NCBI RefSeq assembly: GCF_000485595.1
Contig: NW_014578072.1
Location: 42,337 to 89,008 of the forward strand
From: Priapulus caudatus
Taxonomy: Eukaryota > Priapulida > Priapulimorpha > Priapulimorphida > Priapulidae
Direction: 5' to 3'
Length of the DNA stretch: 46,672 bases
In this document: one piece after another, positions 927 through 46,339 of the stretch
Numbering within the stretch: position 1 is the stretch's first letter
Layout of the letters: the number at the start of each line of letters is the position of its first letter
Made by a program: the position numbers and the translations under genes
The notes under the pieces: generated by a model
Databases searched by the model: none
Seen by the model: only the letters and a program-made list of their open reading frames with translations
What the model was told of the DNA's origin: nothing

Positions 927-3900
927 CTATCAAGGGCGAGCCCCAGAATCCAGGACTGTTGTGGGAACGATGCAAGTGCTATGAAGCCCTGCATGAACAA
1001 AAGAGAGCATTGGAAGGTTACCTTGTGATCCTGAATTTACTAGAGCCATCTGATGGAGATAAATTCATGCATCTATCCAAAGACATTGCAAGGGTATGTA
1101 GATTTCTATTTCTATTTAAAGACATTGTAAATGTCTAAGGACATTATTTGTATATACAAAACACATTTGAATTCTGTTCGTTTGGTTCTCTCATATGGTT
1201 TTTATATATTATATTGAATGTTCATGTTCCAAACTATATATTTACATTAATAAAAATTTAAAGTTATTTATACATTTTATATCACAGATGTAGATACATA
1301 TTTTACTAGTTATACACACTATTGGGTCATGTGAAATTTATTTGAATAAATTATAATATAAATGAGTCGCATATGATTTCATAACACTATCTAACCATGT
1401 CAGCTCAACCTACATGTAAAACTTGCTGTCTGGGTAAATGAGGGTGATTCACCTTGTTATCCATTGTAGGCATACGAGTGCACCCTGCCATGTGTAGTCA
1501 GTCGGGTTTCCTTTCTCAATTATTTAATTAAAATGAGTACTTTACGAAAATAATCCAACTGTTACTTTAAATATTGAAAGTGAGCAGAAATAAGTTGAAA
1601 CACTAACAAGCTATTGTATAAAATCTAATTGCAATAATGAACACTTACATAACAAGTCGGGTGTTGTGTGTACAAAAAATCTGTTTGCATGTAATTATCT
1701 ATATTTGTGTAAAAATTCACAGGTTCATTCACAGGTTTCACAGGTTCAAGATTTGTACATTTCACCTATCAACATATTAGCCAGCGAGCCGTGCAGCCGT
1801 GATTTGCACGGTCAGTTTTGAAACTGTACGGCCAAAAATGTGTAGCACGGCCTAAAATTTTGATCTAAAGCCGTGTACATTTGTAAAATTGCACTCCCAA
1901 ATAATTTTTTTGCGCTCCCACGATACTCATTCCTGGCTAATACCCTGTCACCTATTCTACTTTGTTCACAGATTCAGCATGAGAGTGGTGATGTTCTACT
2001 GGCAATCGCTACTATGGAAGCTGCCTTTCAGGCTCATCCACTTTCTATAACCTCTGAAGGTTAGCTTATCATCATTAGTTTTATCAATGGTTATTATTAA
2101 CTTTTGTTATCATGTATCCGTTTTTGATTGGTCAGTTTGTTCTGTACAATGTTTGGCTCTGTGATAATGCCGTGGTTTCCTTCAGTGTCTGTTGCTTTGT
2201 TTATTACTAAAAGAACAAAAGCTATGTCGTTTAGATTTGGGATATAGGTTCACACTGACGCACATTTTTACTGAGATGCGATGATTAATTATACCATAAA
2301 ATATCTGCTTTTTGGAAACGTCTTTTGCAAGGTGCTACTTCTAAAACCAAACTGACGTTAGATTAATTTGTGACCCTGCTGTTTTTGAACTGGGGACTTT
2401 CCTTCGTTTCATTTTGTTTTTCATTGTTTCACAATGATCTGGTTTGTGTGTCGGATGAGCGAATTGTTTCTTCTTCCCGGTGTAGATATAAATCTTGCTC
2501 TGGAGCTGTACATCTCTCAGAAGCAGTTTCACAGTTCCCTGGACCTCATCTGCCGACACTGCGGGGTGAAGATCTTGTATAAGGTGCATGACGAGAAAGC
2601 ACCAGCAACAGACAGGCAAGAGACTTGCTCACTAGGAACCTAACTCTAAGCTTGCTTTATGTACTTGTCATGATAATCGTTGATGCACACAATTGAACCT
2701 GCAGTGCTGCTCTCTATAGTGGCCATGACAGGGAATAAAGTTTTAAGTAAATTAATTATTACTAATAACACATTTTGTGTGTAACATTACTGACTCTCCC
2801 AGGGTACTGCCGGAACGCACCCTGGGTATGGTCCGCTATACCGGAACCTACCCTGGTAACTATCTGATATGGTTAGGGTTAGGGTTAGAGAGTAGGCATA
2901 GGCGACTCCCTAGACTCGTTAGTGGAGTAGGCGAGGTACGGTCCGGCATATTAGATAGTACCAGGGTACGTTCCGGTATACCGGACCGTATCTAGGGTAC
3001 GTTCCGGCAGTACCCTGGGGGACATAGACCCTGTCAGCATTACTGACATTATGTTAAATGATATGAATTAATTCATGATTTGAATGATTAATTAGTATTT
3101 GAATCATATGAATTAAATTTACCTTGGTTGTTGTGATTAACTTCAAAATCTTGCTCCATTGTCTTTTTAGATATAATATTCCTGATGCCTTGCCGATAGA
3201 CCTGAGGATTAAACTTGTTGTGTGCCTGATTCACCTCAGTTATAATATAGCGCAGGTTTGTCACTGTTTATCTTCATTTATGTCCATCTGTCACATGGAA
3301 TCTTAAATGTTTATAATTTAAATTGAGTATCATTAAAAACAGGAATCCACTGTCATCTTTTATTATTTTATTAATTATATGCTTTAATTCAATTTACATG
3401 TTGTGCATTTTGCAGATGATCGTTCAGCCATTATTCCAAGAATCGCCAGAAGATATGGGCGATCTGTGTCTTGATGTAGCAGAGGCTTACATGGAGGTCG
3501 GCTCATACCAGGATGCGTTACCCATCCTTTCCACTCTCGTCAACTCGCACAGCTACAATCTGGTAATTAATGTGTTGCCACGTAGCTTTTCTTAGAACTT
3601 CTCTCTGTAATAGAGCTAGAGATGCACACATTTGCAATGCAGAGTTACTGGCATTGGAAATGATTACACAAAGTGTGTCAATGCACATGGAAAATCTGCA
3701 TCGAGGAAATTTCGCGCACTAGTGCTTTCGCAATGCACAAGGTACGAATAATTTTATCACGAATTCCTACAGGCGGCTGTCTGGCTGCGTTACGGCGAGT
3801 GTCTGAATGCACTGGGGCAGATGCAGAATGCAGTGCAGGCCTACAGACAGGTAGTGGACCTAGCTCCCTCTCACATGTCTGCCAGAATGACACTGTCCTC

Positions 3901-6900: not shown

Positions 6901-9551
6901 GGTGTTAATGTGATAGTGTAGCTTGGTAATCCTCATAAGTATGGTGATACTAGTTGCTAAATTTGAGAACGATCAGCTTGATTTTAGCACTTGCAGGTAA
7001 TAGTACTAAGTACGATTTATTACTTTCATTTGTAGTCTTATGATATTGTTTTAGAATTATGATTGCACAATTGTGGCTAAACTAATAAATAAATCGGGGA
7101 ATAAATAATATGTTCTCCATGGGTAATAATAAAACTTTAAAACCTTAACAAACAGTTATAATTCATGTGATATGTATCATAATGTCTTTCAATCCATATT
7201 TCTCCTACAGGGTTGTTCATTCTTGAATCAGTATGTCGAGCTACGGGGCGAGTGTCAGGAGACTTTCTACAATCTGGGTAGAGCCATGCACCAGCTCGGT
7301 ACTTGCATTATATGTATATCTATATGTAGTCTCAGCCCTCGACACTAACGGTTGTCCGATTGCCCGGGACAAGTGAAAGTCTATGTCGGACAAGTTATTC
7401 TCTTGCCTAGTTGCCCGATCGGACAACTGAAAAGTTCTAGTTATTTAATATTCCTAACATCCTCTGACCCAGGGCGCTATCGCACTACATTCTCACTTCA
7501 AACGTTTTAAAAGGTCCTTGAAAAAAGCAGCCCGCAAAGTTAAATCTTTCCCGCGCCTATGTATAGGCGCATAGGGCGGTGCCTATCTCCGTTTCCGTAA
7601 CCCTGAGGCCCTGCATGCAGCTGCTTTCACAGTAAATGCTACAGTAGGGGGTTAGTCCACTGGTAGCACTGCGAGTTAACTTGCCACACCGGGTGTCATT
7701 ACCGCAATTACATGTTAGATTTACATCTGATCACATGAGGTACTTAATTAATCCTCATTAGTCTCACGTGACGATGTAATAAGTAATAGTAATATGAAGT
7801 AATAGGTCTTCCATCGATACCTCGTGATGTTAGGGCAAGGCCCGCAACGTCATGCCGTAAAACAACTCCCTTTATGCAGAAACCAAATCGTCAGCGTATA
7901 TATGCGCCAGATCCTAATACTATACCAGGAGCGAGAAGGAAATATGATTTGATGAAATATAATATGATAAATAACATTATTCATATTATTTGCATTACAT
8001 ACCTGGCTCTTTCAAGCGTCCATAGCCACGTCTCTGGGAAGAAGGTTCTTATGTCAGGCGTAGATGGCGCTTCTTGTGGGTCTTCAATAAACTCGTCTTT
8101 GGTTGTGGTAAATGAGCTGGACGTGGTAAATGAGCTGGTCGTGGGAAATGCGGTGCCCGTCGCAAAAGTAGGTTGCGGTGCAAAGCTAGTACGTCTATTA
8201 GACTCGAATCCTCCAAAAGATGTCGCAGTTAGCTGAGGACCTACAGAACAAACAAATGGAAAAGTATATTCTGGATTAATTACAGCCTCAAACGTTATTG
8301 AAATGACTGATTTAATGATATTATCAAGTGAAATCTCATTTAAATGTTTCCGATATTTTCTCACAAACACTTCGTCACATGTTGTCTATATGCTATATAT
8401 ACCGAAACGACGTAGGTAGATAAAGCGTGGCTCAGGCTTGCACGGTCTCGCATCAACGTTCATGTCTGACATGACCAATAATCCCAGATCCTGTGTAACA
8501 AAAAAAAGCGAGAGTAAATAGCAGTGACAGAATGACCGTGAATATAAACATTATATCGAGCAAATAATGTTCATTTGACCCGAGTTACTTGAGCATTAAT
8601 GAAAGTAAAACAATGATAATTTATTAAGAAATGTAGCAAGCAAATATTTGCATATTTGTGTCATGAATTTGATGTTATTGCGCACAAAGTAGTATATTGG
8701 GATAAGTAAGGCTTTGGTTAGCAGTGCACGATACGTATTTTTTAACAAGGGATATTATTAGACATGTTTATGATCATAGATATAGTTATCAACATAAATA
8801 CAATAATTATAGCTGCAGAGAAGACAACACCAGCTGTTGATGTGGAGCACGAACCTGGAATGCCTGCCTTGAGTCCACATAATCAGTGAAAAATTCGGAC
8901 AAGTAAAAATTGCTTCTTGTTGCCCGACAGGACAACCAGATCTGAAAATAAGCGTCGAGGCCTGAGTCTATACTGGCTCATGCTGTTAGCTTGGTAGTAC
9001 AGATGTGCAAACAATACAGACTTGTGTTAGAGAAACCTAACCTATAGGCAGCTGCCACCTGAGATTTAGGCAGTGATCTAGCTACAACTGAACTAATCAT
9101 AGAAATTACATCTAACACATGACTGTAATATATGTATCTTTTTCTAGGTCTGTTATATGCAGCTGTTTACTATTATAAAAGAGCATTAGCAGTTGGGCCA
9201 GCCATCAAAGAAGACCATCACCAGGTAACTACACCATTCGATGAAATTATCATTTGATATACATATTATTTATGTATCATGAATTCATGGATCTATTCAT
9301 ATTGTGTGCGTGCGTGCGTGCGTGCGAGCGTGCGTGCGTACGTGCATGCGTTCGTGTGTGTACGTGTGTGTACAAATTATATTAGCTTTTACGAAATTAG
9401 TGGTGCTGCACCTGGCTAAAAATAATCATTGTTATTTCAGGAACTGTTTGACCTGAAACGAGAAACTGCATTCAATCTGTCACTTATATACCAGCACAGT
9501 GGCAATAATGATCTGGCAAGAATGGTCTTAAATGAACACTGCATCGTTTGA
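927..9551 (+). CDS. GTF3C3: General transcription factor 3C polypeptide 3 (TFIIIC102), 3' part, 16 exons
   Basis: TPR-repeat subunit of TFIIIC, the RNA polymerase III factor that binds the internal promoters of tRNA genes; nuclear. Exons: 927-1093, 1972-2059, 2486-2615, 3171-3255, 3416-3562, 3773-3953, 4243-4407, 4738-4818, 5248-5306, 5588-5692, 5804-5890, 6190-6364, 6715-6839, 7211-7298, 9148-9224, 9441-9551 (stop TGA at 9549). All phases join into about 622 codons with no internal stop. Family signatures recalled from the vertebrate protein are present: WERCKCYEAL and LNLLEPSDGDKFM (exon 1), PEDMGDLCLDVAEAYMEVG (exon 5), QVVDLAPSHMSARMTLSSLQ (exon 6), RHNRFCMRLLMKQP (exon 12), LCIGLTFFHLASQKF (exon 13), and the C-terminus ETAFNLSLIYQHSGN (exon 16). 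About 250 N-terminal residues lie before the window. Intron 3 uses a GC donor. Intron 14 hosts a transposon with A2M sequence. Confidence 0.95.
2616..3170 (+). other. GTF3C3 intron 3, GC-AG type
   Basis: Using the nearby GT (2584) would put exon 4 out of frame and straight into a stop. The phase is restored only if exon 3 runs to 2615 and splices at GCAAG. That gives ...ATD-RYNIPDALPIDLRIKL, matching the family's IPDGVPIDI region. The intron also contains a small transposon at 2795-3037. Confidence 0.75.
2795..3037. mobile_element. MITE with CCCAGGGTACTGCCGG ends and TTAGGG-like core
   Basis: Outer inverted repeats read CCCAGGGTACTGCCGGAACG at 2798 and its exact complement ending at 3018. 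Further palindromic GGTACGTTCCGGTATACCGG-type motifs lie inside. A direct repeat CATTACTGAC flanks the unit (2785-2794 and 3038-3047), a likely target duplication. The core has GGTTAGGGTTAGGGTTAG at about 2871-2888. A second copy lies at 45939-46229. No coding capacity. Confidence 0.75.
3970..4200. repeat. degenerate minisatellite in GTF3C3 intron 6
   Basis: About four to five imperfect units of roughly 45-60 bp, each with a GAATCTACCA(G/A)ACAGAATTATGGGT-like core followed by an ACCTGATAAT-like segment. It lies wholly in the intron. Confidence 0.65.
6330..6602 (+). repeat. tandem decayed copies of the exon 12 / 5' splice-site segment of GTF3C3
   Basis: The end of exon 12 (...GGCAGCTATAAGCATTCGCTCG followed by GTAGGT) is echoed downstream. 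AGCTTCAGGCATTCACTA precedes GTAAGCC at 6531, a looser copy precedes GTAAGC at 6466, and a third weaker copy (AGCTGTAAGCATTTACTG) ends near 6600. Spacing is about 65-70 bp between the last copies. Each of the first two copies keeps a strong donor-like GTAAG. Interpreted as tandem duplication of an exon-intron boundary followed by decay. Confidence 0.5.
8003..8240 (-). pseudogene. captured A2M bait-region exon (exon 19 homologue), open and spliceable
   Basis: The minus strand shows acceptor TTCTGTAG, an open 238-nt exon and donor GTATGT, the same phases as exon 19 of A2M-b. The conserved 3' part reads [17 protein letters not shown], the hallmark sequence after the A2M bait. The 5' part (PQLTATSFGGFESNRRTSF, then repeated SFTT-type units) is a bait sequence distinct from A2M-b and, at its start, also from A2M-a. 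No stop or frameshift is present, unlike the matching exon in A2M-a. On its own it has no promoter or start codon, so it is listed as a fragment. Confidence 0.85.
8403..8490 (-). pseudogene. captured A2M exon 18 homologue
   Basis: Acceptor GTTACACAG, then a frame reading [17 protein letters not shown] followed by KPEPRFIYLRRF and donor GTATAT: 88 nt, phase-compatible with the bait exon at 8003-8240. The cysteine-ended first half is conserved with A2M-b exon 18; the second half, the start of the bait, is unrelated. The A2M-a counterpart (17103-17190) has two one-base indels that this copy lacks. Confidence 0.8.
8855..8888 (-). pseudogene. captured 3' end of A2M exon 17
   Basis: Only the last 34 nt of exon 17 (encoding roughly [10 protein letters not shown]) with its GTTCGT donor are present. 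Homology to A2M-a stops at 8888 inside the exon, where the element's own sequence (GGACAAG...GACAACC) begins. A breakpoint inside an exon is expected for random capture of genomic DNA. Confidence 0.75.
9304..9372. repeat. (GTGC)n microsatellite
   Basis: Imperfect GTGC/GTGCGA repeats in GTF3C3 intron 15. The same motif recurs at 11383-11412, 32386-32470 and, as CACG, at 39509-39560. Confidence 0.9.
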
Positions 9552-12924: not shown

Positions 12925-15900
12925 CTATTGAAACATAATCAGTGATAAAGTTTACAGTGCTATGCGGCTCCTCTAATACAGATCTATTCATGTATAATTT
13001 TACAATGTATTCTTCGACTCTGGTAGCAACGTATTAAGAGGAAAGACAGTCGAATGTTCAACTCAGTGTTAAACTTCTGATGTCTCAAAACGATTCATTT
13101 ATATATAATATTCAATAACGTGAAAGACACCGCACTTATTGGCGATATAGTAGATAATTTCAGTTTTCATTAGTGCAGGTGAACTGATGTACCATCTAAG
13201 GTCGCATGTTTTTACCTATCCAAGTATTCCTGAGCTTTGTTCATATCACCGTAGCGGGCGTACGCGTAAGCCACCAGGGCCGTGGTGTAGGCGTCGTCGA
13301 AGGTTTCGCCTTCAATGCAGGAGAAGGCATCTGAGATGGCTCGCTCTGTATCAGCAACCTTGGACTCGATCAACGACGTCACAACGTAGGCTGTTAGCGT
13401 GTCGGCAGTTGGTCTTTGAATTACCAACGCCCTCCCTGCGAATATGAGGACATCGAACGATGCGTGTGTAATATCTAGCTGTCAAAAGGAAATTATAAAT
13501 CTTCATACAAAGATCGTAGCGTACCACCCTTGTGGCTCTCTTGTCTCATAGAGAGAAATGTATTTCTTGTCGCGTGTTCTTCTAGATGGCCGTCTTTGAG
13601 ACAAATGTTTATTTTCCCTTCCTCATTTCTGTCGGCTCTTTAGACCAAATCCGATGTATATCTACATGACTCATAGGACTAACTATTTATGGTATTTCAT
13701 CAGCTAGATGCCGGGCCTCGCAGAGCTACGTACGTTCATGTCCTTGTGGTGAGTCAACGTCCGAGCCGAGGAAGCAGCAATCTCTACGCTGGCTGGCTTG
13801 ATGATCCAATGCACATCATGTCGATCTCATTCCATTCAATGTAGATGAATGCGCTGCGCCTGCGCAAAGCAGCGTCACGACGAACGCTGTCAACCACATG
13901 CTGGCTTCTTTGTCGGCGGTTACGCGAACGCGCTATAGGCGGCGTCAGTGTGCTTAAACGTCAGCTCCCTCTGGTAGCCTGCAAGAGAAACACAGCTGTA
14001 TGAACGCGCTAGAGCCGTCTTGTGCTTAAACATCAGCTCCTTCTAGTAGCCTGTAGGTGAAACATAGATGTATGTACGGGTTATAGCCGTCGTCCGTGTG
14101 ATTAAATGTCGGCTTCTTCTAGTAGCCTTCATCGCCAGATTTGTAACAATTGTTTTACAGTCAAGTTGGCCAAATATACTAACGTTTTGTCGCAAGATAA
14201 ATCAGATAATACAAGAACTTGTACGTAACATTGGAAGCTCTGCTTTCCTCTATGGCTTACCGGATTTCATGAATCCCACAGCTTTCTCCTGGATTTCCGC
14301 GTCAGCTGATCGTGGTTGTGAGGTATTCCATGATGTAGATGTCAGGAGGCGAACGTTATCATGTTCTGCTCCCGCATCCGTACGGCATTTCAGCAGTCCG
14401 TCAAGATTATCTAAGGGAGCTCCCATGACGTCACCGATGATGGACACCCGTGCACGACCCGAATCTGTGGTGAGAAAATGTGTATGACGTCACTGCTATA
14501 GACAGATCATCGGTACAAAATCTCAGCTTGGCCTATGCACATTATCTAAAAACTAATATTGAATTCAGGAATTGAAATCGATAATGTCATTTTTGCTCGA
14601 TTTAAATATTGTTTTATAAATATATGAACTACCCGTATAATTATTTACCGGGTACTAGGTCTCGGATGGTAGCATTAGATCCATGACGTCGAGAGAAAGG
14701 TTCCCCGTCGTCCGGGCAGACGAACCAGTTAATGGAGTAGGACTTCTCTACGCCCTCCGCCTCCACCAGCAGTGGCTGCGTGATCGCATCGCGGACTCCT
14801 GTGACTGTGCTCATGACAGCACCGCTTGACAGATGGCGCTACCTGAGTCAGCCAGTCATGGCGTGTACCGTGATGTTGACGTCGCCTAGCTCTCGGGTTG
14901 AATCATGAACCTAACGCGAGACAGTATCGATTAAATACATGTTCAAAACTGTCTTGTCCTAGCTTACTCAAATTATCGGCGTTGATGTTTTAGTGTTATA
15001 TGATATTATTATAGTGGCATATTGGAATAGAATGTCAATGAATCACACGAATCACCACGAGGCAAAGATATTATCACATAAAAAACAAGGTCAGCGACGT
15101 ACATATATGGTTTACTGACATATATGTCGACAGTAATATTCGAATAGGCATGATAAATTGACGCACTAGTTGTGATAAACAACCAACACAATGAACTATT
15201 TATGATTGAGCTATATGGCTTATGATGAGTCCAAGATTATAAAGTTGCTACTAATAGTATATGTGCCATTTTCACGCATCTTACGCTGTGAGTGGCTGAT
15301 CTGCTTCCACATACACATATCTCAGCCTCGCTTCAATCAATGATGTCAACGCGACCGACGACCGATTCATCGAGAGTGAGCGAAATCTGAGCAGAAATAT
15401 TTAAACAACGTCATTAATCATGCGAGACTGGTTATCATTGCTTTAATTACTACAATGACTTGCCACGAATCATATTGTTATTACATCGCGCGAGCTTATC
15501 ATTGGCATGGGAATCTTGACATGCTTCTCATGCATTTACGTATACGGTGCAATGCTGACATTGCCCGATATCATTAATATTCACCACACTATAAGTGTAT
15601 ATCAGGAGTGAATAATAGAGATAGAGAAAGAGATCATCCTATTATTCACTCCTGGTTATATTTTTTCCTTACTATTATATACACTACGCTATACGGGCAG
15701 ATACTGACGTGGCATCGTCACAGGATGAGGGAGCGTATAGTAGCTGCAACTCTATACTCACCGCCAGACATTCGAGAGGTAGTTAAAGACGGACACGATG
15801 AGCGGCACCTTCTCCCGCGGATGACGAGTAGAGGCAGTGTGTAGGAGACGAAGACGGCTGGAAGGCGCGTAGAGAGAACTGGCGGGGAGATCCGAGTCCC

Positions 15901-17943
15901 GTCTCCTCACTCGTGCAGAGCCGCCCCACCCAGTCCGTGATCGTGTCCGGCACCTCGGTACGAACTAAGCAGCTCGCCGCTGTCACTGTCAGAGTAAAGC
16001 GTACGTAAAGTCAAGTAAGACCACATGACTGACTTCTCAACGGACAGTGAGCAACTAGGCATAGCAGATTGAGAAATCTTTTCACAATCATCATGTACAT
16101 CTTCACGTATTACACGGCTTAAAGACATAATCATGCTACTGCATGGGTACAGCATAAAGAATAGTATTGTTGCTTTAAGGAAGGTAATAAGGAAAATTAG
16201 ATGAGCGACCTTTACTCAACAAGCCAAATGACGTACGCGACACACCGGGTGTCATTAAGTTAAAGTTAAATCTTTCCCGCGCCTATGTATAGGCGCATAG
16301 GGCGGTGCCTATCTCCGTTTCCGTAACCCTGAGGCCCTGCATGCAGCTGCTTTCACAGTAAATGCTAGCAGTAGGGGGTTAGTCCACTGTAGCACTGCGA
16401 GTTAACTTGCCACACCGGGTTCACTACCGCAATTACATTGTTAGATTTACATCTGATCACATGAGGTACTTAATTATCCTCATTAGTCTCACGTGACGAT
16501 GTAATAAGTAATAGTAATATGAAGTAAGTAATAGGTCTTCCATCGATACCGTCGTGATGTTAGGGCAAGGCCCGCAACGTCATGCCGTAAACAACCCCTT
16601 TATGCAGAAACCAAATCGTCAGCGTATATTAGCGCAGATCCTAATACTATACCAGGAGCGAGAAGGAAATATGATTTGAATGAAATATAATATGATAAAT
16701 AACATTATTCATATTATTTGGCATTACATACCTGACTCTTTCAAGCGTCCATAGCCACGTCTCTGGGAAGAAGGTTCTTATGTCAGGCGTAGATGGCGCT
16801 TCTGTGGGTCTTCAATAAACTCGTCTGTGGTTGTGGGAAATGAGGTGGTCGTGCGAAATGCGGTGGCCGTCGTAAAGTAGGTTGCGGTGCAAAGCTAGTA
16901 CGTCTAATAGATCTCCCTAAAAGCTCTGGGCCAGGAGCTACAGAACACAAACAAATGGAAAGTAATATTCTGGATTAATTAACAGCCTCAACGTTATTGA
17001 AATGACTGATTTAATGATATTATCAAGTGAAATCTCATTTAAATGTTTCCGATATTTTCTCACAAACACTTCGTCCCATGTTGTCTTATATGCTATATAT
17101 ACCGAAACGACGTAGGTAGATAAAGCGTGGCTCAGGCTTGCACGGTCTCGGCATCAACGTTCATGTCTGACATGACCAATAATCCAGATCCTGTGTAACA
17201 AAAAAAAGAGAGTAAATAGCAGTGACAGAATGACCGTGAATATAAACATTATATCGAGCAAATAATGTTCATTTGACCCGGAGTTACTTGAGCATATAAT
17301 GAAAGTAAAATAATGATAATTTATTAAGAAATGTAGCAAGCAAAATATTTGCATATTTGTGTCATGAATTTGATGTTATTGCGGCACAAAGTAGTATATT
17401 GGGATAAGTAAGGCTTTGGTTAGCAGTGCACGATACGTATTTTTTAACAAGGGATATTATTAGACATGTTTATGATGCATAGATATAGTTATCAACATAA
17501 ATACAATAATTATAGCTGCAGAGAAGACAACACCAGCTGTTGATGTGGAGCACGAACCTGGAATGCCTGCCTTGAGTCCACATAATCAGTGTGCTTCCAT
17601 GTGTAACTGGCCGGGTAACGATGAAAAGGTGGGATGGTCGTGAAGTGCAGGCCTAGACCACCCGCAGATACTCGGGCAGGTATGGGCGGAACTGTAACAA
17701 CGCAGTAAAATCTATGATTTCCGATAGAGTTTACTATAGGACTAATACCAGAAATAGCAGACACTTATGAATTGGGTAATAAAACCACATCGCTAATTGC
17801 TGGCGTTTATGAGTACCACACCAATTCAATGTAATTGTTGCTACCTACACTATACTCAAGTACACAGTATGTGTACTCTCTCGTTCTCTCTTGCTCTCTC
17901 TCTCTCTCTCTATCTCTCTATTATCTCTCTCTCTATCTCTCTC

Positions 17944-23286: not shown

Positions 23287-24622
23287 TTCTCTACGCCCTC
23301 CGCCTCCACCAGCAGTGGCTGCGTGATCGCATCGCGGACTCCTGTGACTGTGCTCATGACGGCACCGGCTCGACAGATGGCGCTACCTGAGTCAGCAGTC
23401 ATGGCGTGTACAGTGATGTTGACGTCGCCTAGCTCTCGGGGTTGAATCATGAACCTAACGCGAGACAGTATCGATTAAATACATGCTCAAATCTGTCATG
23501 TCCTTGACTCAAATTATCGCGTTGATGTTTTAGTGTTATATGATATTATTATAGTGGCATGTTGGAATAGAATGTCAATGAATCACACGAATCAACCACG
23601 AGGCAAAGATATTATCACATAAAAAACGGGTCACGACGTACATATATGGTTTACTGACATATATATATGTCGACAGTAATATTCGAATAGCATGATAATT
23701 GACGCACTAGTTGTGATAAACAACCAACACAATGAACTATTTATGATTGAGCTATATGGCTTATGTGAGTCCAAGATTATAAAGTTCTACTAATATTATA
23801 TATGCCATTTTCACGCATCTTACCTGTGAGTGGCTGATCTGCTTCCACATACACATATCTCAGCCTCGCTTCCGTCAATGATGTCAAACGCGACCGATTC
23901 ATCGAGAGTGAGCGAAATCTGAGCGGAAATATTTAAACGACGTCATAATCATGCGAGACTGGTTATCAATTGCTTTAATTACTACAGTGACTTGCCACGA
24001 ATCAATATTGTTAATTACATCCCAGGCTTATCATTGGCACGGGAATTTATTTTATAATAAATTTTCATACACCACGATTTCTTGACATATGCTCTCATAC
24101 ATTTACGTATACGGTGCAATGCTGACATTGCCCGATATATGAATATTCACCACACTATATAGTTATATCAAGAGTGAATAATAGTGAGATAGAGAAAGAG
24201 ATAATCTTTATTATTCACTCCTGGTTATATTTTTCCTTACTATTATATACACTACGCTATACGGGCAGACTGACGTGCATGTCACGGGATGAGGGAGCGT
24301 ATAGTAGCTACAACTCTATACTCACCGCCAGACATTCGGAGAGATAGTTAAAGACGGACACGATGAGCGGCACCTTCTCCCCGCGAATGACAGAGTAAGG
24401 CAGTGTGTAGGAGACGAAGAACGGCTGGAAGGCGCGCAGAGAGAACGGCGGGGAGATGCCGAGTCCCGTCTCCTCACTCGTGCAGAAGCCGCCTCCCACC
24501 CAGTCCGTGATCGTGTCCGGCACCTCGGTACGAACTAGCAGCTCGCCGCTGTCACTGTCAGAGTAAAGCGTACGTAAAGTCAAGTAAGACCACATGACTG
24601 ACTTCTCAACGGACAGTGAGCA
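23287..24622 (-). pseudogene. displaced duplicate of A2M exons 20, 21 and part of 22
   Basis: Exon 20 homologue 24326-24554 (229 nt, intact, [17 protein letters not shown]...), exon 21 homologue 23824-23918 (95 nt, intact, GTAAG donor), exon 22 homologue 23287-23454, cut inside the codons for EAEGVE and fused to about 20 bp preceding A2M-a exon 2. The introns match A2M-b (34572-34978, 35074-35452) better than A2M-a: for example they share an ATTTATTATAAAATAAATT-type segment missing at about 15.5 kb. Homology to the other copies ends near 24622. It cannot function in this order. Confidence 0.8.
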
Positions 24623-25380
24623 ATCCAGGCACACAATCGTGACTAAAAGTAGCCAGAGTTCTAGGAACGCCGATGCGCGTCTGTCTACATAGCCGTGACC
24701 AGGAAACAGACGATTAATGATCGACGCGCATTAGTTCTTTCCGTTTCTCGTTTATCTAAAGCGATTCGTGATCCAATTTCTTAACAAAATTTGCGTTCGC
24801 TTATTTTCTCTGTTGACGGGTTCCTAGTTGTTTTGTGTTCGCATGCGTTCACCGCATAGACGACATAACAATAACTGCACGGCTTGGTTCGGCTGCAAGT
24901 TCTCTCGTTAATATCCGGGACCTGTAAACTGCCAACGCTGTTTATACAGGGCCGTACGCTGAGAAAATTCCCAGGGGTGCAGTGGCGGATCCAGGATTTC
25001 AAGGAGGGCGTGAGAAACAGGTGGGGGTCTGGAGGTTTTCTTCCACAGAAAATGTTGACAATGTATATCGCAGGAGATGGTATTTGAGGCACGTTTGAGT
25101 TCATGCACAGCCTTCATTCTGACTACAACAATTCTCTTTTAGTAGAATAATTTTTTTTTTAATTTTGCTTTAAAATTTAGGGCTGCCCCCTTGCCCCCTC
25201 CCCCCGCAGGCTACGGCCCTCATATAAGAGACATGCTGCCATCTGCTATCTCACCTGAAGTGACAGCCAAGGAAATGACTACGACGTAGAGAGAGCATAC
25301 ATCACGCACAGTGAAAGCGGCAGTGACTGAATATATACAAAAAATACAGAAATTACTTGCAGAACCGGATCTTGGATCGA
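24623..25380. other. intergenic region between the A2M copies
   Basis: No exon recognised. A minus-strand hydrophobic stretch (LELWLLLVTIV) next to the displaced exon 20 has no upstream ATG in frame before a stop and is not taken as a signal peptide. The region contains the small transposon at 24947-25221. Confidence 0.6.
24947..25221. mobile_element. MITE with AGGGCCGTA ends
   Basis: Left CAGGGCCGTAC and right CTACGGCCCTC are inverted repeats. The interior has a TGGCGGATCCAGGATTTCAA segment and a C-rich CCCCCTTGCCCCC stretch, both common in non-autonomous hAT-type elements. It lies about 165 bp upstream of the A2M-b TATA box. No clear target duplication seen. Confidence 0.55.
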
Positions 25381-32420: not shown

Positions 32421-35400
32421 GTGCGTGTGTGCGTGCACGTGTGTGCGTGCGTGCGTGTGTGCGTGTGTGTGCGTGTATGGGTGGTGTGACCGGGTGCGCA
32501 CGAATTCATTTAAACGAGAGATGATTTGAGTTAAGGTATTCGTGTAAATAGATACGAGTAGTTGTTGCAAAACATTACGTTTGGGTGGTGTCCGTATGCT
32601 ATTTGGTAGGTGACACACTATTACTCTGATATAACAGGCCCTAGCTCACGGCCATCGACCGAACTAACTACCGAAGATTACTATGGTCGCAGAATCAGAT
32701 ACACATGGAAGCACACCGATTATGTTGACTCAAGGCAGGCGTTCCTGGTTCGTACTTTACAGTAACAGCTGGTGTTACCTTAGCTACAGCTTTATGCAGT
32801 ACTTTTATGTGGGATATCTTTATCTCTATATAATTATAATCATACTTAAAATTGCGCATTAGAATGTTTAGGCATTCACACTAATAACCCAAAGAAAGAT
32901 TATCCTAATGTACTACAGCAGTCTATACATATATTATGTGGTTAGCTTATACAATATAAGTCAATAGCGTAAATATGTACCTAACATAAGTTGGGTGCTT
33001 TTTATACGTACTTACACGTAATAATATGTGTGTTTACAGACAAATGTTTATCAACTTGTAAACGCAACAAGGTTATTTTCAATGATTATTACCTGAATGA
33101 TATGAAGACGTATACTATTGTTCTACATCACCGTTATATGTCGGTGTTTACGGTCAATCTGCTATTATACAGGATCTGGGATTAATGGTAATGTCGGATA
33201 TGAACGTTGATGCGAGACCGTGCAATTCCGAGCAGCAGACATATTACGAATACAATTTCTTTGATAACCGTAAGTTTTCCATCCAAAGTACTCTTCTATA
33301 CGATGTTTACGTTCGGAAAATCATCGGACGCAATTATAACGTCTCAATCTTTATATGCCACAAAGCGCGTTATGTCCATGCACACAACTGTCATAAACAT
33401 TTTATTATAAATATTGTTGTGTAGATGCCAATGATTAAAGACATATCTTAAATATCCTTTATTAGGCCGTGGTGTAGAAGACTTTACTACCTCCGCGGCG
33501 GCGACATTTACTCTTTCTACTTCGGATCCACCTGCAACTACGTCAGCTATTACTGGCGCAGATGACGACTCGGATGACAATGATGTCGAGCCCCAAGAAA
33601 CGCCATCTACGCCCGATATAAGAACCTTTTTCCCAGAGACGTGGCTATGGACGCTTGAAAAAGTCAAGTATGTAATGCAAATAATATGAATAATGTTTGG
33701 CTAGTGCGGTGGCATAGGATCTCATGCCGACTGTGTCGATCGTGCTTCTGCATAAGACGAGTTGTGTTATAGTGTGAGGTTGTGAGCCTTACCACTTCCT
33801 CTTGACATAGCGATGGAAGACCTATTTCTACACCCAGCGCTGTGTGTAACAAATGATAAAGTACCTCAAATGATCATGAGTAAATCTAAGGCTAAACTGT
33901 TATAATGGTGTCCGCGTGCTCATATACGTAATGTCGGCTTGACGAGTTAAGTTCACTCATTCGTTGTCGAGAAACATCTTCACATTGAAGACGATAGTAA
34001 CGTTCTTTCACTTTGGCCATCACTGCTAAAGTCGATAGACTAAGTACGGTCACAAATATACGCGGCCGGGTGTTGCGTATTATGTGAATATACGTTTTTT
34101 ATACTCAGAAATTCCGTGCGAAATTCCGTAAATCAATGACAGTATTCTATATCAAGAGACTTGAAGTATGATTATGTCGCAAAGACGAGTGAAATGTAAA
34201 GAGATAAACGGTAGCTGAAAATAATATCTTAACGCTACTAAGCCTAGTTGCTCACTTTCCGTTGAGAGGTCAGTCGTGACGTCACGTCTTACTTCACTTT
34301 ACGTACGCTTCACTTTGACTTACGTTGACTTTACTCTGACAGTGACAGCGGCGAGCTGCTAGTTCGTACCGAGGTGCCGGACACGATCACGGACTGGGTG
34401 GGAGGCGGCTTCTGCACGAGTGAGGAGACGGGACTCGGCATCTCCCCGCCGCTCTCTCTGCGCGCCTTCCAACCGTTCTTCGTCTCTTACACACTGCCTT
34501 ACTCCGTCATCCGCGGGGAGAAGGTGCCGCTCATCGTGTCCGTCTTTAACTACCTCTCCGAATGTCTGGCGGTGAGTATAGAGTTGTAGCTACTATACGC
34601 TCCCTCAGACCGTGACATGCACGTCAGTCTGCCCGTATAGCGTAGTGTATATAATAGTAAGGAAAAATATAACCAGGAGTGAATAATAGAGATGATCTCT
34701 TTCTCTATCTCAATATATATTCACTCTTGATATAACTATATAGTGTGGTGAATATTAATATATCGGGCAATGTCAGCATTGCACCGTATACGTAAATGCT
34801 TGAGAGCATGTCAAGAAATCGTGGTGTATAAAAATTTATTATAAAATAAATTCCCGTGCCAATGATAAGCCCGGGATGTAATTAACAATATTGATTCGTG
34901 CAAGTCATTGTAGTAATTAAAGCAATTGATAACCAGTCTCGCATGATTAATGACGTCGGTTTAAATATTTCCGCTCAGATTTCGCTCACTCTCGATGAAT
35001 CGGTCGCGTTTGACATCATTGACGGAAGCGAGGCTGAGATATGTGTATGTGGAAGCAGATCATCCACTCACAGGTTAGATGCGTGAAAATGGCATATATA
35101 GTATTAGTATAACTTTATAATCTTGGACTCACATAAGCCATATAGCTCAATAATAAATAGTTTATTGTGTTGGTTGTTTATCACAACTAGTGCGTCAATT
35201 ATCATGCTATTCGAATATTACTGTCGATATATATATATATATATGTCATTAAATAATATATGTACGTCGTGACCCGTTTTTTATGTGATAATATCTTTGC
35301 CTCGTGGTTGATTCGTGTGATTCATTGACATTCTATTCCAACATGCCACTATAATAATATCATATAACACTAAAACATCAACGCGATAATTTGAGTCAAG

Positions 35401-38400
35401 CTAGGACAAGACAGTTTTGAGCATGTATTTAATCGATACTGTCTCGCGTTAGGTTCATGATTCAACCCCGAGAGCTAGGCGACGTCAACATCACTGTACA
35501 CGCCATGACTGCTGACTCAGGCAGCGCCATCTGTCGAGCCGGTGCCGTCATGAGCACAGTCACAGGAGTCCGCGATGCGATCACGCAGCCACTGCTGGTG
35601 GAGGCGGAGGGCGTAGAGAAGTCCTACTCCATTAACTGGTTCGTCTGCCCGGACGACGGGGAACCTTTCTCTGACGTCATGGACCTAATGCTACCCTCCG
35701 AGAACCTAGTACCCGGTAAATAAATATACGGGTAGTTAATATATTTATAAAATAATATTTAAATCCGAACAAAAATGACATTATCGATTTAAATTCCTGA
35801 ATTTCAATATTAGTTTTTAGATAATGTGCATAGGCCAAGCTGAGATTTTGTACCGATGATCTGTCTATAGCACTGCAGTGACGTCATACACATTTTCTCA
35901 CCACAGATTCGGGTCGTGCACGGGTGTCCATCATCGGTGACGTTATGGGAGCTCCCTTAGATAATCTTGACGGACTGCTGAAGATGCCGTACGGATGCGG
36001 GGAGCAGAACATGATAACGTTCGCTCCTGACATCTACATCATGGAATACCTCACAACCACCGATCAGCTGACGCCGGAAATCCAGGGGAAAGCTGTGGGA
36101 TTCATGAAGTCCGGTAAGCCACAGAGGAAAGCAGAGCTTCCAATCGTTACGTACAAGTTCTTGTATTATCTGATTTATCTTGCGACAAAACGTTAGTATC
36201 TTTGGCCAACTTGACTGTAAAATCATTGTTACAAATCTGGCGATGCAGGCTACTAGAAGAAACCGACATTTAATCACACGGACGACGGCTATAACCCGTA
36301 CATACAGTATGTTTCACCTACAGGCTACTAGAAGGAGCTGATGTTTAATCACACGGACGACGGCTATAACCCGTACATACAGCTATGTTTCACCTACAGG
36401 CTACTAGAAGGAGCTGATGTTTAAGCAGACGGACGACGGCTCTAGCGCGTTCATACAGCTGTGTTTCTCTTGCAGGCTACCAGAGGGAGCTGACGTTTAA
36501 GCACACTGACGCCGCCTATAGCGCGTTCGGTAACCGCGACAAGGAAGGCAGCATGTGGTTGACAGCGTTCGTCGTGCGCTGCTTTGCGCAGGCGCAGCCA
36601 TTCATCTACATTGATGGGAATGAGATCGACATGAGTGTGCGTTGGATCATCAAGCAGCAGCGTAGAGATGGCTGCTTCCCTCGGCTCGGCACGTTGCACC
36701 ACAAGGACATGAACGTACGTACCTCTGCGAGGGCCATCTAGTGATGAAATGAGCATAAATAGTTAGTCCCTACGAGGTTCATGTAGAGATAGATGGGGTT
36801 TGGAGTCTAAAGAGCCGACAGAAATGAGGAAGGGGAAAATAAACATTTGGTCTCAAAGACGGCCATCTAGAAGAGACACGCGACAAGAAATACATTTCTC
36901 TCTATGAGACCAAGAGAGCGCAAGGTGGTACGATCTTTGTATCAAGATTTATAATTTCTTTTGACACTATATTACACACGCATCGTGATGTCCTCATATT
37001 CGCAGGGAGGCGTTGGTAATTCAAAGACCAACGCAACGCTAACAGCCTACGTTGTGACGTCGTTGATCGAGTCCAAGGTTGCTGATACAGAGCGAGCCAT
37101 CTCAGATGCCTTCTCCTGCATTGAAGGCGAAACCTTCGACGACGCCTACACCACGGCCCTGGTGGCCTACGCGTACGCCCGCTACGGTGATATGAACAAA
37201 GCTCAGGAATACTTGGATAGGTAAAAACACACGACCTTAGATGGTACATCAGTTCACCTGAACTAATGAAAACTAAAATTATCTACTATCACCAATAAGT
37301 GCGGTGTCTTTCGCCTTATTGGAGATTATATGGAGTTATCAGCCGTTTAACACTAACGGAGTTGAACATTCGGCTGCCTTTCCTCTTACTACGGTGCTAC
37401 GAGTCGGAGAATACATTGTAAAATTATACCTGAATAGATATGTATCCGAGGAGCCGCATAGTACTGTAAACTTCATCACCGATTATGTTTCAATAGGTTA
37501 ATGAAGCTGGCTGTACGAAACGAGACGGCACAAACTGTAAACTGGGAGAAAGCCGAAGCAGAAACAGTCGACGTTACGTAAGTACCAAAATTTTTGTTTT
37601 ATAGTCGTGGTATAGTGATAATTTTTAGTGTTCGGAATTCCTATACTCGTTTGTAAGTTACCCCTACTATCAATGTCCGTGAATTCACAGGTTGCCATGG
37701 AACCGTCAGGCTGAGAAAAAGTCGATAAACACTGAGATGACAGCATATGCTCTGCTGACGCTGACGCTGATTGAAAGCGATGATTCGACGCTGCCTCTCT
37801 CTATCGTCAGGTGGTTGACGCAGCAGCAAAACTCACGCGGTGGTTTCTCATCAACACAGGTACTCAACTTGAGCTATCGACGTTCAAGCAGCAATGCAGC
37901 TCATGACATGGTCCGCACAACTAGCCTTAGATTTCGTGGATTGAAACAGATTAACGTAAACTCATATATGCAATTAAGGATCACCTCTCATTGTCATGGA
38001 TCGTAAATGCTAATTGATAATTAGCATTTCATCTAATTCTGTTTCTACTATTGCTCCGCAGGACACCGTAATCGCTCTGCAGGCTCTCTCCCAGTTCGCT
38101 ATGAAGTTTTTCGGTTCGCAAAGTAGCAGCGACATTACGGTCAGCGGTGACGACGTTGACGCTGCTCTGAGCGTGTCTGGCACCAACAGCCTTGTCCAGC
38201 AGCTGGTCGACGTGCCCTCGGTGCCCAGCGTGCTAGACGTCACAGTGACGGGGACACGATGTGTCATTATTAAGGTGAGCTAACTCGACGAGAGTACGTG
38301 TTACGGCTCTGACTTTTAAATGGTAGCAGTGATGCTCTGCTGTCATCATATATATAGTGTCGCACATTTATTCACGTTGCATGAGTTGCAGCTAAAATTG

Positions 38401-45796: not shown

Positions 45797-45938
45797 CTAT
45801 GCGAAAGAAGTGATAAGTCGCCGTACGTTCTCACGTCCTGGTCAAACCGATATAGGGTTCACACACCGCTGCGCATACGCGCGGCATATCAGCGTGGTTA
45901 GGCGCAATACGCACTTACAGCTCCCTTACGCTCATAAG

Positions 45939-46229
45939 GTCTATGTCCCCCAGGGTACTGCCGGAACGTACCCTGGGTACGGTCCGGTATACCGGAACGT
46001 ACCCTGGTCACTATTTGATATGGTTAGGGTTAGGATTAGGGTTAGGGTTAGGGTTAGGATTAGGGTTAGGGTTCGGGTTCGGCTTAGGGAGTAGGCGTAG
46101 GCGATTCCCTAGACTCGTTAGTGGAGTAGGCGAGGAACGGTTCGGCATATTAGATAGTACCAGGGTACGTTCCGGTATACTGGATCGTACCCAGGGTACG
46201 GTCCGGCAGTACCCCGGGGGACATAGACC
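45939..46229. mobile_element. second copy of the CCCAGGGTACTGCCGG MITE, with longer TTAGGG-like array
   Basis: Ends GGTCTATGTCCCCCAGGG and its near complement. Same internal order as 2795-3037. The core has about eight TTAGGG/TTAGGA/TTCGGG units (46023-46087) against about three in the other copy. Confidence 0.8.
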
Positions 46230-46339
46230 ATCTCAGCCTCACTTACAGCTAAGTGGGTATAACACGATACGCACTACACATAGGTGACAGGTACAATGTG
46301 GTACGTCCCGCGTAAAAGTAACTGTTAATATGTTGGGAT

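Follow-up and report, generated by a model that had tools for sequence, protein, structure and literature searches.

How did a piece of genomic A2M come to lie between transposon ends in an intron of another gene, GTF3C3, and could it serve the neighboring A2M genes as a donor of bait sequence? The window (the whole stretch analyzed, 46,672 nucleotides of Priapulus caudatus, C1012:42337-89008 of a 385-Mb genome assembly) carries GTF3C3 on the plus strand, where four joined exons match General transcription factor 3C polypeptide 3 (PDB 8clk_D, E 2.3e-46). Behind it, two A2M genes are arranged head to head, A2M-1 on the minus strand at about 10-23 kb and A2M-2 on the plus strand at about 26-40 kb; both are assigned from their mutual similarity and from Pfam TED_complement and A2M_BRD matches in each. 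These matches bear out the gene names given in the first-pass annotation. Pfam was run on 10 frames, five of which had no match, including that of the A2M piece within the transposon (hereafter, the cassette). DNA searches were run against the same genome and score the best candidates only, so that copy numbers are lower bounds.

The gene pair has further peculiarities. A second copy of the internal A2M block 14744-16061 is present at 23287-24631, adjoining the 5' part of A2M-1, and is somewhat nearer A2M-2 (96%) than A2M-1 (93-94%, indel-rich). Four tandem copies of a 76-bp unit, seemingly with a TED-domain exon and splice signals, occupy 36233-36535 in A2M-2, and about two copies of this TED-exon-like unit are found at 13926-14128 in A2M-1. 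Near both window ends (2795-3048 and 45938-46247), and also in the family copy L033, there is a dispersed repeat marked by GGTTAGGGTTAG-like and CCCTGGGTACGGTCCGGTATACC motifs.

The element at 7333-8964 sits in a GTF3C3 intron. It is bounded by the inverted-repeat ends CAGCCCTCGAC and GTCGAGGCCTG, with AGTCT on either side; both the terminal inverted repeats and the 5-bp direct repeat had been pointed out before and are present in the sequence as described. The features of the locus and of its donor are as follows.

7328..7332, no strand: target-site duplication AGTCT, left copy, 5 bp (sequence).
7333..7535, plus: left 203 bp of the putative hAT element, with the terminal inverted repeat CAGCCCTCGACACTAA... 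(repeat family; 86% to the L059 left end).
7536..8888, minus: putatively captured A2M genomic segment, a copy of 16262-17591, in place of the family's usual middle (alignment, genome search).
7536..7701, minus: SINE-like repeat (7536-7684) and inner target duplication (7685-7701), apparently captured with the A2M intron (repeat alignment).
8003..8240, minus: putative bait exon, 238 nt, open, with a conserved 13-residue end (splice sites by eye; bait identity from position).
8403..8490, minus: preceding exon, 88 nt, open, phase-compatible (splice sites by eye).
8826..8888, minus: partial exon, cut by the right junction (match to A2M-2 32776-32714).
8889..8964, plus: right 76 bp of the putative hAT element, ending ...GTCGAGGCCTG (repeat family; 96% to the L059 right end).
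8965..8969, no strand: target-site duplication AGTCT, right copy, 5 bp (sequence).
16262..17591, minus: donor segment in A2M-1, mostly within a stretch rich in 1-bp indels, about 13.5-17.48 kb (alignment).
16241..16426, minus: SINE-like insertion in an A2M-1 intron, flanked by both of its target duplications, 16241-16257 and 16411-16426, the latter differing at two positions (repeat alignment).

The ends belong to a repeat family. The left end (query 7324-7535) has at least 41 genome matches including the window (best 40 of 190 candidates scored), and the 16-base terminal pattern has 126 exact genome matches, as against none for a reversed-pattern control. The 35 stretches fetched cover 37 of the 40 left-end matches outside the window; 17 of the 35 hold both ends within 3 kb, and 10 of these two-ended copies are 1.0-1.1 kb long. 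Of the 17, 11 have target duplications of exactly 5 bp (one of them, L022, counted by an extrapolated end), two have duplications of 6 bp, one has a duplication that is ambiguous within a TA repeat, and three have none; 5-bp duplications are also found in L059 (CCATG), C1066 (CCTAT) and C991 (TGTAC). Compared with an ordinary copy, L025, 14 of the 17 are free of unmatched stretches longer than 30 bp under one or more of the ways in which their ends can be read, among them L022, which has a large deletion. The search of the genome for the end segments, with and without A2M cargo, that had been proposed as a check thus yields a family whose other copies have other middles, and the A2M piece was not found in any other fetched family copy.

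Pieces unmatched in L025 occur in L014, L024 and L038, and in C991 (about 430 bp), which is outside the 17. The interiors of L014 and L024 were considered as gene captures and rejected: by eye, that of L014 resembles another inserted element, that of L024 holds an inverted repeat, and neither is an evident capture. At C1066:9225-19727 (L016 and L060), a 10.5-kb stretch lies between family ends in opposite orientation with a matching 5-bp duplication, CCTAT, and its first 237 bp match the family.

The genome contains at least 144 hAT matches (best 150 of 275 candidates scored), some of which, e.g., at C409 and C620, are within a few kb of end matches. One long relative, L059 (C284:183255-186853, 3,599 bp), has a pair of terminal patterns enclosing a hAT match within a CCATG target duplication, and its ends resemble those of the window element (left, 86% over 208 columns; right, 96% over 75 bp). 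Its 502-aa frame has a Pfam match to Dimer_Tnp_hAT (E 6e-6; 26.4 bits, the cut-off being 21.4) and matched no solved structure. The hAT match of L015 was also considered as an autonomous partner and rejected, as no matching ends surround it. Because L059 combines similar ends with a hAT transposase domain, 7333-8964 is best classified, on sequence grounds, as a non-autonomous hAT element. The name hAT5 has been given to hAT families whose target duplications are 5 bp long (Kapitonov and Jurka, 2007, as cited in the available part of PMC12730594). The window family would be hAT5-like: it shares with that group the transposase domain of its long relative and mostly 5-bp duplications, and it differs in that its placement is by duplication length and a modest Pfam match.

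The cargo, 7536-8888, aligns with A2M-1 16262-17591 over its full length in direct orientation (94.2% over 1,373 columns), in agreement with the borders first proposed. Its 1,353 bp are genomic A2M, comprising two complete exons, part of a third, introns and most of a SINE-like repeat. Homology had been said to start and stop inside introns or exons, and this is the case: the left break is in the tail of the SINE-like repeat within an A2M intron, and the right break is inside an exon, the third exon being cut at 8888. About 2 bp are shared at the left junction (relative to the closest copies), and at the right junction none, with one extra A. When the genome was searched with 7750-8888 (4 of 4 candidates scored), the matches were the cassette, A2M-1, and fragments of A2M-2 and of a further A2M relative on C681; full-length cargo is found in the cassette and A2M-1 only. 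Besides these two full ones, at least 40 genome matches were found to the first 154 bp of the cargo (best 40 of 205 candidates scored). These were considered as many cassette copies, a reading that was rejected, since they represent the dispersed SINE-like repeat, which is read as a SINE by eye from a variable far end and a tRNA-like promoter motif in eight aligned copies; an Rfam search of 16200-16500 found nothing. In A2M-1 this repeat is flanked by its 17-bp duplication on both sides, whereas the element has only the inner copy (7685-7701). Hence A2M was the source of the copied sequence and the element its recipient.

The donor lies 8.7 kb from the element in the same orientation; the probability of a random landing within 9 kb is about 5e-5. 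The quality of the donor sequence bears on every comparison with it. Between 13.5 and 16.0 kb, the ratio of 1-bp indels to substitutions in A2M-1 is 0.4-1.6 per 500-bp bin against A2M-2, which beyond 16 kb is too divergent for judging this ratio; over the indel-rich stretch the ratio is 0.6-1.6 against a third copy and 0.6-5 against the cassette. Elsewhere in A2M-1 it is 0-0.04 (12.0-13.0 and 18.5-21.4 kb), the 13.0-kb bin having 0.20; values are 0-0.08 at 21.6-22.8 kb and 0-0.27 at 23.3-24.6 kb. The last 1-bp indel of the donor against the cassette is at 17477, and 1-bp indels make up 26 of the 49 difference events between the two. At two indel differences inside the SINE-like repeat, all eight other aligned copies agree with the cassette. 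The excess in the indel ratio and the agreement of these eight copies with the cassette suggest that the A2M-1 frameshifts in about 13.5-17.48 kb are probably assembly errors of the donor. The stretch 13500-17480, with its many 1-bp indels, resembles unpolished or gap-filled assembly, and the thioester exon (14250-14489) has a frameshift in A2M-1 and is intact in A2M-2.

Two complete, open and phase-compatible exons had been ascribed to the cargo, and on the minus strand 8403-8490 and 8003-8240 are indeed open and join in phase, with splice sites located by eye. A conserved stretch of 16 residues, leading into the next A2M domain, follows the bait in A2M-2 as well as in the cassette, and A2M-1 has it in a frame other than that of its bait. 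The segment just before the shared stretch of 13 residues we take to be the bait, the part that proteases are thought to bite, and exon 8003-8240 would by its place be the A2M bait exon. At E <= 0.01, Pfam found no family for the cassette frame 7981-8385 or for the matching A2M-2 frame 33435-33689, and the bait-exon frame, searched against proteins, yielded five candidates, none at E <= 0.1.

Differences between donor and copy are concentrated in this exon. Its 238 bp account for 10 substitutions and 8 indels, of which 3 are 1 bp long, and the 1,115 bp outside it for 5 substitutions and 26 indels, of which 23 are 1 bp long. The contrast in substitutions, 10 of 201 aligned exon sites against 5 of 1,104 outside (p 9e-6), is robust to five alignment-cost sets (p between 4e-7 and 2e-5). 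Since exon and flanks lie in the same poor donor stretch, sequencing error is not by itself a sufficient explanation of this difference. Codons could be read by eye for seven exon substitutions, all of which change the amino acid; three others are unreadable. A2M-1 and A2M-2 have other baits, and the cassette's version is missing from every further A2M locus found in the assembly. In view of the substitution contrast, the cassette preserves a bait version absent from every assembled A2M gene found.

Taken together, we hold with a probability of roughly 0.87 that 7333-8964 is a hAT element with captured A2M-1 DNA; where the replacement took place is outside this figure. Against it count the three two-ended copies of 17 without a duplication, the two with 6 bp, and the poor assembly of the donor stretch. 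A host-gene fragment lies between the family's terminal inverted repeats and is flanked by a target duplication, and the family's middle appears to have been replaced by genomic A2M in a Pack-TYPE-like manner. The first-pass annotation had suggested Pack-type capture by a terminal-inverted-repeat transposon, which the family ends with other middles support; its further description of the cassette as mobile is not sustained, as the only copy of the cargo found lies next to its donor. Neither an empty site nor a second allele was found at the locus in the assembly, where one haplotype was recovered.

With a single copy of the cargo found and the donor at a distance of 8.7 kb, repair synthesis acting locally is the favored route of capture. 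A non-autonomous hAT element of a family mostly with 5-bp duplications would have inserted into the GTF3C3 intron; a break or excision gap in the resident element would then have been repaired by synthesis, with a template switch to A2M-1. Most of the middle (about 700-800 bp in ordinary copies) would thereby have been exchanged for 1,353 bp of A2M, leaving the ends intact. Such in-place synthesis with A2M-1 as template is the simplest reading and the one that we lean toward, on evidence from one assembly and one haplotype, in which it is indistinguishable from capture at another place and a subsequent local hop. The capture would be recent.

The intact ends and clean AGTCT duplication would fit such a hop, in which capture took place elsewhere, or between two neighboring elements as in the Pack-CACTA model of tandem insertion and re-mobilization, before insertion into GTF3C3; this course shares the hAT capture itself. 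A two-element capture model of this kind, and insertions of maize hAT Pack elements that are local and mostly in the same orientation, are described in the available part of PMC8903248. At our locus, however, no second element end was found in the window or in the five neighboring stretches fetched (C1012:1-22336 being outside that set), so that the two-element model leaves no trace there. A trace of tandem-insertion capture was sought at the donor and not found, and the only possible remnants are weak 33-50-bp matches to the family middle near the locus, those in the window falling within simple repeats. As there is also no further copy of the cargo (4 of 4 candidates scored), the hop is a possible course that we regard as doubtful. 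Much less probable is that the assembly joined reads from another A2M-1 allele into an ordinary transposon copy. The error-rich donor stretch, and a bait found at no other A2M locus, would be expected of such an artifact, whereas the junctions share no more than about 2 bp, not enough overlap for reads to be misjoined, the cassette looks clean, being supported at two indels by eight other repeat copies, and the ends and target duplication are perfect. The junction structure in particular makes misassembly of the cassette unlikely.

Capture by the hAT element leaves the origin of the bait difference to be considered. The cassette may have kept an older or alternative bait while that of A2M-1 changed fast under protease selection, an addition compatible with the capture that we judge evenly poised. 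The excess of exon substitutions, all readable ones altering the amino acid, speaks for it, and bait divergence is stated for vertebrates and invertebrates in the available part of PMC6650032. Seven of seven non-synonymous changes are not significant by themselves, however, with three substitutions unreadable; the donor stretch has probable sequencing errors, its bait being open only across frame breaks; and an allelic difference predating capture fits equally well. Change in A2M-1 after capture and capture of another allele fit alike.

The first-pass annotation had also seen in the cassette a silent bait donor, from which gene conversion would move the bait exon into A2M-1 and diversify the protease trap. 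The substrate is workable: an open, divergent bait exon lies in direct orientation between near-identical flanks of 467 bp and 648 bp, and flanks of about 0.5 kb on either side would permit conversion. There is, however, no sign of transfer into an expressed gene: A2M-1, A2M-2 and the other A2M loci found in the assembly lack the cassette's bait, and conversion would homogenize the exon, yet the exon is the most divergent part. Position also opposes the proposal, the cassette being antisense within GTF3C3 and downstream of A2M-1. We therefore consider a silent donor highly improbable, and no more credence is due to a genomic bait reservoir in which conversion swaps bait exons and the bait now seen in A2M-1 arose by such a swap; the assembly showed no converted A2M copy. 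With exons oriented opposite to GTF3C3 and located past the 3' end of A2M-1, the cassette would not be expected to join either transcript by simple splicing. The cassette is most likely a passenger, apparently without function.

To our knowledge, gene capture by cut-and-paste transposons has been described mainly in plants, and animal Pack-hATs are little described in the open-license literature. This locus offers a clean-looking animal case in which donor, direction, family and a transposase-bearing relative all come from one genome. The captured copy keeps a bait exon beside introns that act as a clock, and might thus provide a gauge of the rate of bait change in a protease trap.

The closest known systems are Pack-TYPE transposons, especially maize Pack-hAT, which in the available part of PMC8903248 are likewise non-autonomous elements with intact terminal inverted repeats and a host-gene middle. 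Relative to that account, the window element differs in being in an animal genome, in its 5-bp rather than the usual 8-bp duplication, in its one copy found, in its donor 8.7 kb away and in having no donor-site remnants found. A2M bait splice variants of a tick, according to a title cited in PMC2685406, resemble the present case in that there is more than one bait version per genome; in the tick, one gene provides them by splicing, whereas the cassette is placed behind A2M-1, inside another gene.
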